From Flavobacterium sp. WC2421 (GTDB lineage Bacteria; Bacteroidota; Bacteroidia; Flavobacteriales; Flavobacteriaceae): a stretch of DNA of 64,000 nt. The notes beneath the pieces are model-generated. The model was not told where the DNA came from. It worked only from the letters and a program-made list of their open reading frames with translations, and did no database searches. Made by a program: the position numbers and the translations under genes. The stretch is taken from assembly GCF_040822115.1 (NCBI RefSeq), contig NZ_CP162004.1, positions 3,519,001 through 3,583,000 on the forward strand, given 5' to 3'. Each line of letters begins with the position of its first letter. The stretch's first letter is position 1. Of this stretch, positions 18,861 to 21,560 are shown one piece after another.

Positions 18861-19568
18861 TTAAATTTCTTTTGAAATTCTACTTAAAATATCATTCATC
18901 ATCTCAATTTGAATTTTCTGAATTTCTATTAATTCTTCTTGTTGATGCCGAATTAAATGATCTAACTTTTCATGTAGCATTCTTATTTCTAATTCAGATT
19001 TTAAATTAATCATATAATCTTTTCTTGCTCGGTCTCGGTCTTTTTCTTCCTGACGATTTTGACTCATCATAATTACCGGAGCTTGAAGTGCAGCAAGACA
19101 AGATAAAATTAAATTCAATAAAATGAATGGATAAGGATCAAACCCTTTATTCAAGAGAATATAAATATTAGCCAAAATCCAAAGCACAATAAATATCCCG
19201 AATAAAATAATAAATCGCCAACTACCTCCAAAATCGGCTACTTTATCAGCTACAATTTGCCCAACGGTTCGAACTTCAATTTCATCTTCCACCTTACTTA
19301 CTACAGAGTCGTAACCATCCAGTTCTCCAATAACTTTAGATTCGATTTTTGACAACTCCCCTATTTCATTTGACAAATAATTGGAGATGTATTTTTCTCT
19401 ATATAAATTAAGCTCTTTTATTGATAAAAACTGATCGCTTTTGAAATTAGGAAAATCTGCTTTCATTAATTCCAAAATTGGATTCCGAATTAATTTTCCA
19501 GAAACTTTATCCGTCAATGGAAATTCTTTTTTGGAAAGATCACTTATAAAAGTATTAATTGGTTTCAT
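18861..19568 (-). CDS. DUF1003 membrane protein
   Basis: 235 residues. The N-terminal half is soluble (LSKKEFPLTDKVSGKLIRNP, probable cytoplasmic recognition part). The DUF1003 core is at about 125-215: VADKVADFGGSWRFIILFGIFI, a second helix YPFILLNLILSCLAALQAPV, then the typical IMMSQNRQEEKDRDRARKDY with the charged helix LKSELEIRMLHEKLDHL. Two membrane helices. Function of the family is unknown. Single-gene unit. Confidence 0.88.
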   Translation of the reverse strand: MKPINTFISDLSKKEFPLTDKVSGKLIRNPILELMKADFPNFKSDQFLSIKELNLYREKYISNYLSNEIGELSKIESKVIGELDGYDSVVSKVEDEIEVRTVGQIVADKVADFGGSWRFIILFGIFIVLWILANIYILLNKGFDPYPFILLNLILSCLAALQAPVIMMSQNRQEEKDRDRARKDYMINLKSELEIRMLHEKLDHLIRHQQEELIEIQKIQIEMMNDILSRISKEI

Positions 19569-19718
19569 TGTAGCGTTTTTTACTAGGCTAATTTACATAT
19601 TAAAAAAACACTTTGATATTAAAATAATTATCAGCCCATCAATTCACTTTTATTAAAAAAAAGCACCTGCTTTTGTTAGACTGTGCTACATCTTACAACA
19701 TAATCCAAAATAGTTCAA

Positions 19719-19726
19719 TATATTTG
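19719..19726 (+). promoter_or_regulatory. -7 promoter element (TATATTTG) of the cys leader-cysE-cysM transcript
   Basis: TATATTTG, a full TAnnTTTG match. Transcription would begin near 19730, giving about 25-30 nt before the leader-peptide ATG (19758) and about 150 nt before cysE. Confidence 0.6.
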
Positions 19727-19757
19727 TTTCGTTTTTATTTAAGGAAACCGTTTCGTT

Positions 19758-19832
19758 ATGAACTACAAACAAATCATTTTTCTTTATAACATTCCAATTT
19801 CATCAAAATGGAGTTGTTGTTGCTGTTTCTAA
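19758..19832 (+). CDS. Candidate cysteine leader peptide (24 codons, four consecutive Cys codons)
   Basis: A short frame opening with MNYKQIIFLYNIP and ending SKWSCCCCF, stop TAA at 19830-19832. The cysteine codons are TGT TGT TGC TGT at 19815-19826. It starts 31 bp after a consensus -7 element and ends 47 bp before the start of the serine acetyltransferase gene, which is followed by cysteine synthase. A run of four codons for the end product of the pathway directly upstream of its genes is the classic signature of control by ribosome stalling. Sequence AGTTGTT (19812-19818), overlapping the Ser-Cys-Cys codons, can pair with AACAACT (19836-19842), which is followed by TTT. The frame is too short for ordinary gene finders. 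Confidence 0.75.
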   Translation: MNYKQIIFLYNIPISSKWSCCCCF

Positions 19833-19845
19833 ATAAACAACTTTT
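19812..19845 (+). promoter_or_regulatory. Possible attenuator hairpin over the leader Cys codons
   Basis: AGTTGTT (19812-19818) complements AACAACT (19836-19842), extended by two possible G-U pairs, with a short U run at 19842-19845. The 5' arm covers Cys codons, so a ribosome paused there would prevent folding. The stem is short and AT-rich, so its stability is uncertain. Confidence 0.35.
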
Positions 19846-19879
19846 AACCCATTCTATTAACAATTCACCCCCCATAATC

Positions 19880-20671
19880 ATGACAAAAGATCTGATTATT
19901 AATACTATTGCCTCATTAAAGAGTCATTTTTCCATTAATTATGGAATCAAAACAAAAACAGAAACTTTTACTGAAAAGCTGTTTTATACCTTATTTGATA
20001 AAAATGCTCCATTGAGCGAAAGCATTGATGAACTTGAAAAGTTATTTAAAGACATTTCAGCAATTGCTTGTAAAAAGCCCCATGCCTTATGCGACTCCAT
20101 GTGGGATAAATACCTGGAAAAATTACCGTCAGTACTTGAAAAACTAAATCAAGATGCAGCTTACATTTTAGAAAATGACCCTGCCTCAAATAGTATTGAA
20201 GAAGTGTACCTCGCCTATCCTGGATTTTATGCCATTGCCATCTATCGTTTAAGCCACGAATTATATGCTTTGGACCTATTGCTGTTTTCTCGATTAATGA
20301 GTGAATACGCGCATCGTATTACAGGAACAGACATACATGCAGGTGCAAGTATCGAATCTCCTTTTTTTATTGACCACGCTACCGGAATTGTAATTGGAGA
20401 AACAGCAGTTATCGAAAAGAATGTAAAAATATATCAAGGAGTAACTTTGGGCGCACTGAGCGTAAGCAAAGACATGAAAAATGCCAAAAGACATCCTACT
20501 GTAGAGAAAAATGTATGCATTTATGCTAATGCAACTATTCTTGGAGGAGAAACCATCGTAGGAAAAGGAAGTATTATTGGAGGAAACACTTGGGTGACCA
20601 AATCAATTCCAGCCCAATCAATAGTTACAAATACAACAACAACCGAAGTAAAAGTAAAAGAGTTAAGATAG
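19880..20671 (+). CDS. cysE: Serine O-acetyltransferase
   Basis: 263 residues from the ATG at 19880 (MTKDLIINTIASLKSHF). An in-frame ATG exists at 19808, but it lies inside the leader peptide's Cys codons and would add an unlikely MELLLLFLNK tail. Helical N-terminal domain (about 1-140), then a left-handed beta-helix of hexapeptide repeats (about 155-255): TGTDIHAGASIESPFFIDHATGIVIGE with the catalytic His/Asp region, VTLGALSV, VCIYANATILGGETIVGKGS. It acetylates L-serine with acetyl-CoA, the first committed step of cysteine synthesis, in the cytoplasm. The cysteine synthase gene begins 1 nt after its stop. Confidence 0.93.
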   Translation: MTKDLIINTIASLKSHFSINYGIKTKTETFTEKLFYTLFDKNAPLSESIDELEKLFKDISAIACKKPHALCDSMWDKYLEKLPSVLEKLNQDAAYILENDPASNSIEEVYLAYPGFYAIAIYRLSHELYALDLLLFSRLMSEYAHRITGTDIHAGASIESPFFIDHATGIVIGETAVIEKNVKIYQGVTLGALSVSKDMKNAKRHPTVEKNVCIYANATILGGETIVGKGSIIGGNTWVTKSIPAQSIVTNTTTTEVKVKELR

Positions 20672-20672
20672 T

Positions 20673-21560
20673 ATGGAGCCAAAAAAATTATTAGATCTAA
20701 TTGGGAACACTCCATTAGTAGAAACGGTTAATTTGATCAAGAATAAAAATGTAAAACTCTTATTAAAACTGGAAGGGAATAACCCTGGAGGCAGTGTAAA
20801 AGATAGAGCCGCATACAACATGATTGCATCTGCCCTTGAAAGAGGAGATATAAAAAAAGGAGATAAACTGATTGAAGCTACCAGCGGAAACACTGGAATT
20901 GCATTAGCGATGATTGCACAGTTATTCAATATAGAAATAGAACTAGTGCTTCCCGAAGATTCAACCAAAGAACGTACACAAACCATGCGTGCTTATGGCG
21001 CAACCGTAATCCTTACATCAGCCAAAGAAGGGATTTTAGGCTCTAGAGATTATGCGGATAAAAAAGTGGCTGAAGGTGGTTATATTATGCTCAATCAGTT
21101 TGCTAATGAAGACAACTGGAAAGCCCATTACAAAACAACTGGTCCTGAGATTTGGAATGACACTAACGGTACCGTAACCCATTTTGTTTCGGCAATGGGA
21201 ACTACCGGAACTATTATGGGAACTTCTACTTATTTAAAAGAAAAAAACTCAGATATTCAAATTATTGGAGCGCAACCCAGTGATGGTTCTCAAATTCCAG
21301 GAATTAGAAAATGGCCGCTAGAATATTTACCAAAGATTTTTGATGCCTCAAAAGTGGATAGGATTGTAGAAGTGAGTGAACAAGAAGCTCGAGATATGAC
21401 TAAAAAATTAACTCTGGAAGAAGGTGTTTTTGCTGGAATGAGTAGTGGTGGTTCAGTTGCTACTGCCATAAAAATAGCCGAAGAACTAGAATCAGGCGTT
21501 ATCGTAGCTATTATTTGCGACCGTGGTGATCGTTATTTATCTTCTGATTTATTTGATTAA
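20673..21560 (+). CDS. cysM: Cysteine synthase B
   Basis: 295 residues, fold type II PLP enzyme. PLP lysine in NPGGSVKDRAAY, TSGNTGIALA binds the substrate carboxylate, GTTGT anchors the PLP phosphate, and SSGGSVA follows. Length and the sequence KWPLEYLPKIFDASKVD fit CysM more than CysK. It replaces the acetate of O-acetylserine by sulfide (or thiosulfate) to give cysteine. It shares a transcript with cysE, only 1 nt apart, so the two consecutive steps of the pathway are co-expressed under the putative cysteine leader. Confidence 0.94.
   Translation: MEPKKLLDLIGNTPLVETVNLIKNKNVKLLLKLEGNNPGGSVKDRAAYNMIASALERGDIKKGDKLIEATSGNTGIALAMIAQLFNIEIELVLPEDSTKERTQTMRAYGATVILTSAKEGILGSRDYADKKVAEGGYIMLNQFANEDNWKAHYKTTGPEIWNDTNGTVTHFVSAMGTTGTIMGTSTYLKEKNSDIQIIGAQPSDGSQIPGIRKWPLEYLPKIFDASKVDRIVEVSEQEARDMTKKLTLEEGVFAGMSSGGSVATAIKIAEELESGVIVAIICDRGDRYLSSDLFD

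Follow-up and report, generated by a model that had tools for sequence, protein, structure and literature searches.

Upstream of the cysE-cysM operon of Flavobacterium sp. WC2421 lies a real, conserved poly-cysteine leader, best read from sequence comparison as a cysteine-sensing regulator of the two genes that follow it. We put the probability that this short frame encodes a leader peptide which senses cysteine and thereby controls cysE-cysM at roughly 0.8.

The leader frame and its operon

Within the window (the whole 64,000-nucleotide stretch of DNA that was analysed), the leader peptide frame (MNYKQIIFLYNIPISSKWSCCCCF, 19758..19832, forward strand) opens with an ATG and encodes 24 amino acids ending in SKWSCCCCF. 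Its four Cys codons, TGT TGT TGC TGT (19815..19826, forward strand), are separated from the stop by a single Phe codon, and beyond the stop a spacer of 47 nt (19833..19879, forward strand), containing 15 C and no G, leads to cysE. This gene (19880..20671, forward strand) encodes a serine O-acetyltransferase according to NCBIfam, where its score passes the cut-off of EpsC but not that of TIGR01172. It is followed after 1 nt by cysM (20673..21560, forward strand), a cysteine synthase B scoring above the cut-offs of both NF008735 and TIGR01138 (NCBIfam). Downstream of the leader, therefore, stands the pair of genes that turns serine into cysteine, and a small frame with a run of Cys codons placed ahead of genes for cysteine synthesis is the arrangement that characterises a cysteine-responsive poly-Cys leader. 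The positions originally assigned to the -7 box (TATATTTG, 19719-19726), to the frame and to the starts of cysE and cysM were all verified on the sequence.

Conservation of the Cys codons in relatives

The key prediction made from the single sequence, that a Cys-codon frame is conserved ahead of cysE-cysM, was borne out by a comparison of 72 cysE upstream regions. These came from 60 named genome records, the window and 11 further genomes; the set took 60 of 80 loci, leaving out L097 (Dokdonia), L106 (partial) and 18 distant loci (L098, L100, L102-L105 and L107-L118). Using a strict rule, by which a leader is an ATG frame of 12-45 aa with CC and at least three Cys in its last eight residues, we found leaders on the sense strand of 17 of the 72 regions, the window included, and on the antisense strand of none of the 72. 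F. sp. 7A, whose frame has two Cys, is outside these 17 leader loci.

All 17 leaders start with ATG, are 23-27 aa long and carry 3-6 Cys within their last eight residues. Every one of their 66 Cys, encoded by 44 TGT and 22 TGC codons, falls in that terminal segment, and none is found among the other 279 residues. The stop codon comes 0-2 codons after the last Cys and 46-52 nt before cysE (17/17). When the leaders were right-justified, mean pairwise identity was 0.56 over the last six residues versus about 0.14 before them, so that at these 17 of 72 loci the Cys run is conserved beyond the rest of the peptide, as is characteristic of a cysteine-responsive poly-Cys leader. The endings include KWSCCCCF (window), KWYCCCCF (F. 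muglaense), SWNCCCPS (F. frigoris), YWNCCCHY (F. degerlachei), SDSCCRCQ (F. granuli), ILCCCCC (sp. UMI-01), LYCCSCC (F. algicola), SLCDCRCCF (Flavicella marina) and PLCHCCCCC (G583), and the nearest relative of the window is only 83% identical to it in cysE DNA. In-frame Cys codons conserved in this way ahead of cysteine-making genes are best explained by selection.

A promoter upstream of the leader

The promoter box P1 (AAAATAGTTCAATATATTTG, 19707..19726, forward strand), which includes the -7 element, yields a predicted transcript start at about 19731 when the promoter consensus and the 4-5 nt spacing rule given in PMC6847099 are applied. A promoter upstream of the leader had been expected, and the comparison agrees: a P1-type element (TANNTTTG) is found at -154 to -170 in 16 of the 17 leader loci, and the wider 20-bp box could be recognised by reading in 14 of the 17. 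The predicted start lies 15-30 nt before the leader ATG in all 16 of the loci with a P1-type element, and one intact leader, that of F. gawalongense, has no recognisable P1. Leader and upstream P1 are associated (two-by-two table 17, 1, 2, 52, with sp. 7A counted as a leader and the sequences being related, not independent).

Six of the 72 loci (F. sufflavum, undicola, palustre, seoulense, flevense and one MAG) lack a leader and carry their P1 box 69-78 nt ahead of cysE, and P1 also lies upstream of damaged leaders in G019 and G528. The original prediction had named loss of the Cys run beside a retained promoter as evidence against itself; this is what is seen at these six loci and at G019 and G528, and it is not what is seen at the 16 loci where P1 accompanies an intact leader. 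Across the genome, the P1 box AAAATAGTTCAATATMTTTG is the single site below three mismatches, with 10 others at three. In the absence of a second such site the box was rejected as a site of a sulfur regulon; its 20 bp may include a site for a regulator in addition to the promoter.

RNA structure and the proposed mechanism

It had been suggested that the Cys codons lie in one arm of a hairpin followed by a U-run. The 7-bp pairing itself (19812-19818/19836-19842) is present in the window; however, it is neither conserved nor terminator-like, and the AACAAC that follows the leader stop recurs, by reading, only in L012 among the 17 leaders. Since a terminator scan also returned no terminator-like site, intrinsic termination is unlikely. 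An Rfam search of 19500-20100 gave one match, on the other strand inside cysE and below its cut-off, which was discarded. Finally, a search for a conserved RNA fold in 15 leader regions (13 of the 17 intact leaders, sp. 7A and AED) recovered a start-codon hairpin only. Thus neither the scan, the conserved fold nor Rfam revealed the terminator and alternative antiterminator hairpins of a classical transcription attenuator.

Ribosomes slow at Cys codons when charged tRNA-Cys is short. We propose that the operon is transcribed from P1, with a start placed by inference about 26 nt before the leader ATG, and that a ribosome would then translate the leader peptide. When Cys-tRNA is scarce, this ribosome would stall within the Cys run, at 0-2 codons from the stop, and cysE-cysM would be expressed more strongly; when cysteine is plentiful, it would complete the leader and depart, and expression would be attenuated. 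The most likely route would be for the stalled ribosome to mask the RNA just past the leader stop from Rho or a nuclease, the nearest alternative to masking being a change at the cysE start site. Masking fits because the frame has its Cys codons right at its end, hairpins are absent, and the spacer is G-free and C-rich. Taken alone, the Rho or masking step is a tentative proposal that we rate somewhat below even odds. The genome has a Rho gene. The excess of C over G in the spacer, striking in the window, was rejected as a sign of Rho: G makes up 24 of 830 spacer positions in leader loci versus 117 of 2640 in leaderless loci, and because leaderless loci are nearly as G-poor, this composition argues only weakly for Rho.

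The best-surviving rival is nested within the same sensor and would place control at translation, with the Cys tract or leader RNA pairing with the cysE start region and the stalled ribosome setting it free. A weak hairpin of about -4 kcal/mol (19874..19899, forward strand, partly coding) is predicted by folding to hold the cysE start codon in its stem. It is present in 17/17 leader loci on 42-nt folds, and with more upstream sequence 5 of the 17 best folds lose it. F. johnsoniae is described in PMC6847099 as lacking Shine-Dalgarno sequences and tuning initiation by structure near the start. Moreover, the Cys tract can pair with the spacer or start region in F. frigoris, F. degerlachei, FRAM bin12 and G122, and native tract/start pairs were slightly better than permuted ones, a weak signal in that 97 of 5000 permutations were as low. 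Against this, when a ribosome was placed on the Cys codons and the 17 loci were folded, the mean modelled energy of opening the cysE start was unchanged (4.9 free, 4.8 stalled, 5.0 at the stop); no compensatory pairs were found in the conserved-fold search; the tracts pair better with the start regions of leaderless loci than with those of leader loci (-8.17 vs -7.35); and the start-codon hairpin also occurs in many leaderless loci. At the six loci where P1 adjoins cysE, the hairpin is absent in four and present as a shorter version in two. On balance, translational control of this kind is a possibility to which we give about a third of the weight.

Readings without a cysteine sensor

That the frame arose by chance, or is a relic without function, would accord with the absence or damage of the leader in many relatives and with the unconserved N-terminal part of the peptide. 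A four-Cys run had, however, been judged unlikely by chance, and this was upheld by a genome-wide scan for runs of four Cys codons (TGYx4) together with 2000 shuffles. The 3.83-Mb genome holds 67 such sites, 44 on the forward and 23 on the reverse strand (10 and 11 for the reversed control), which fall in 50 distinct frames. All of these were scanned; three have an in-frame ATG, and the cysE leader is the only ATG frame of at least 20 aa among the 50. The other two are 13 and 14 aa long and lie inside stop-free stretches of 810 and 771 nt in another frame. Dinucleotide shuffles of the window's leader DNA gave an open frame with equal terminal Cys in 0 of 2000 cases, and for each of the 17 leaders the observed number of Cys was reached in 0 to 10 of 2000. 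With the shuffle, antisense and genome-wide controls all against it, and with Cys codons retained at loci at least 17% different from the window in cysE DNA, a frame without function is improbable.

The same scan revealed no second poly-Cys leader (ATG, at least 20 aa) among the other 49 TGYx4 frames of the genome. Two candidates were rejected: a frame with a TTG start (L153, ...KQCCCCLPR), which by eye lies between two ribosomal-protein-like genes, not before a sulfur gene; and a sulfate-assimilation cluster (L236), the coding strand of which has only an 11-aa frame, MECCNTSFQQL, between two genes, and in which Rfam found no match. This cluster (L236:4106-11618) contains two PAPS-reductase-family genes and, by eye, a GTPase and further genes, with no poly-Cys leader, and sits downstream of a putative regulator that looks Rrf2-like by eye.

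It is slightly less probable still that the TTG repeats serve not as codons but as a -33 region belonging to a second promoter, P2, close to cysE (-7 near TACTTTTA). Judged by eye, the spacing from the tract to the P2 -7 element downstream of it is plausible, and 45 of the 54 loci without a leader have a P2-like -7 box near cysE and no P1-type element. Yet the P2-like box is absent from 10 of the 17 leader loci, where the Cys codons are kept; 22 of the 66 Cys codons have C in the third position, breaking the TTG repeat; 17/17 leaders have the run in the same frame as an ATG and a stop; and a -33 motif is described as much less evident in F. johnsoniae promoters (PMC6847099). Clusters of 3-6 Cys might also point to a peptide that is itself the product, binding a metal or thiol. 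This is a slimmer prospect again, as little besides the terminal Cys cluster is conserved, the number and spacing of the Cys vary, and the 23-27-aa peptides always precede cysE at a near-fixed distance. Finally, in the window the leader frame overlaps a stretch over which the cysE frame is open upstream, so that a longer CysE could be read from 19808 (MELLLLF...) with this region as its N-terminus, but at the other 16 leader loci this frame, followed upstream from cysE, closes within 12-48 nt, which supports the start at 19880 and leaves the longer protein scarcely credible.

Comparison with known leader peptides

In the attenuators of the trp, his and leu operons, codons for the end product are found in a short leader frame. 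The Flavobacterium leader resembles these in carrying codons for the end product of its pathway, and differs from them in that no terminator or antiterminator hairpins were found. In E. coli, tnaC is Rho-dependent, and its stall is caused by a ligand acting on the nascent chain. The cysteine-sensing leader proposed here would resemble tnaC in that RNA is masked by a ribosome which has stalled at the leader end, whereas its stall would come from a lack of charged tRNA rather than from a nascent-chain ligand.

Poly-Cys leaders before cys operons have been predicted in Actinobacteria (Seliverstov 2005, PMC1262725); that paper cites tnaC as a model and also offers a Rho-dependent model for the mycobacterial cys leaders, a prediction its authors call rather weak. 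In M. smegmatis, poly-Cys leaders are reported to regulate downstream genes by cysteine availability (Canestrari 2020, as described in PMC9031893, PMC9094748 and PMC13236596). The actinobacterial leaders and the one described here have in common a short frame, a Cys run near the stop, a place before sulfur or cysteine genes and the lack of a terminator hairpin. The Flavobacterium leader differs in belonging to another phylum, so that convergence with the mycobacterial leaders is assumed, and in standing before cysE-cysM. Furthermore, the mycobacterial poly-Cys frames are leaderless, with the mRNA starting at the frame, whereas at all 16 loci with a P1-type element the predicted start leaves 15-30 nt of RNA before the ATG. 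One mechanism proposed in mycobacteria is occlusion of a Shine-Dalgarno sequence, and as the Flavobacterium phylum is described as lacking such sequences (PMC6847099), occlusion would not apply unchanged and the mycobacterial model is probably not simply transferable; the comparison of leader loci likewise revealed no conserved pairing of tract and start. If our reading is true, cysteine sensing by a codon run would have evolved convergently in a phylum whose mRNAs have no Shine-Dalgarno sites. The full account, in which Bacteroidota evolved a cysteine leader of their own that passes from genus to genus together with its operon and needs neither Shine-Dalgarno occlusion nor an intrinsic terminator, acting through a ribosome stalled near the stop that shields G-free RNA, is one we hold as a conjecture with rather less than an even chance.

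The initial statement that no case had been described in Bacteroidota was too strong, because leader-peptide attenuation has been claimed for other Flavobacterium operons: PMC9723704 reports strong clues for it upstream of amino-acid operons of F. psychrophilum. These candidates belong to the same genus and involve the same type of claim; they differ in that the structured elements named lie upstream of pheA, hisG and others, and cysE was not found in the main text of that paper. Among the literature matches listed, which exclude subscription papers and supplements, none reported a poly-Cys leader in Bacteroidota.

Distribution, loss and probable transfer of the leader

The leader is a lineage-restricted, minority trait, absent for example from F. 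johnsoniae strain CI04 (L069). In an even sample of the genus, a full-length CysE of this type (at least 81% identical) was found in 50 of 121 genomes, 6 of which have the leader. A pattern search of 398 genomes matched 22, which we judged to be 14 cysE leader loci (13 intact, one with its start lost) and 8 chance matches; nine of the 14 were judged by their match and by identity to loci already read, the others being read directly. With the pattern reversed as a control, 21 of the 398 genomes gave a match, and the pattern alone therefore proves nothing.

CysE was found in 170 of 299 genomes of the family, from which 66 regions of other genera were sampled. Under the strict rule none of these 66 has a sense-strand leader, although two-terminal-Cys sense frames occur in three and one antisense strand (L130) satisfies the rule. 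Likewise, none of 20 second-type cysE regions of the genus has a leader by this rule, and two-terminal-Cys frames occur in two on the sense and four on the antisense strand. Single leader cases would be unconvincing because two-Cys frames turn up in 3/66 and 2/20 controls and the L130 antisense strand passes. L269 and L277 (genus g2) share an ATG frame before cysE that ends in MGSNIRPKCCYFR; it has two Cys and is probably unrelated.

Flavicella-type genomes (L079 and L119; another genus, g3, in which one record is named Flavicella marina) carry the leader together with a CysE 81-82% identical to that of the window, whereas the CysE rows of other genera, among the matches listed, are at most 61% identical to it. 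This difference suggests that the Flavicella-type leader-cysE unit was acquired whole by horizontal transfer. In the cysE tree, rows with the leader are spread across several lineages, with at least four changes forced by well-supported branches and a minimum of six on the tree as a whole, counted over 18 leader rows including sp. 7A on a tree that cannot tell gain from loss. That loss does happen follows from the existence of damaged copies, with an internal stop in F. sp. AED, a lost start in G528, erosion in G019 and two Cys left in F. sp. 7A. Because one and the same operon is found with an intact, a damaged or no leader, nature offers comparisons for studying how the leader works, how it disappears and how a promoter closer to the gene takes its place. 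The cysE of the MAG Flavobacterium sp. NK2020 (L096:3001-3790) is frame-shifted, perhaps through a sequencing error.
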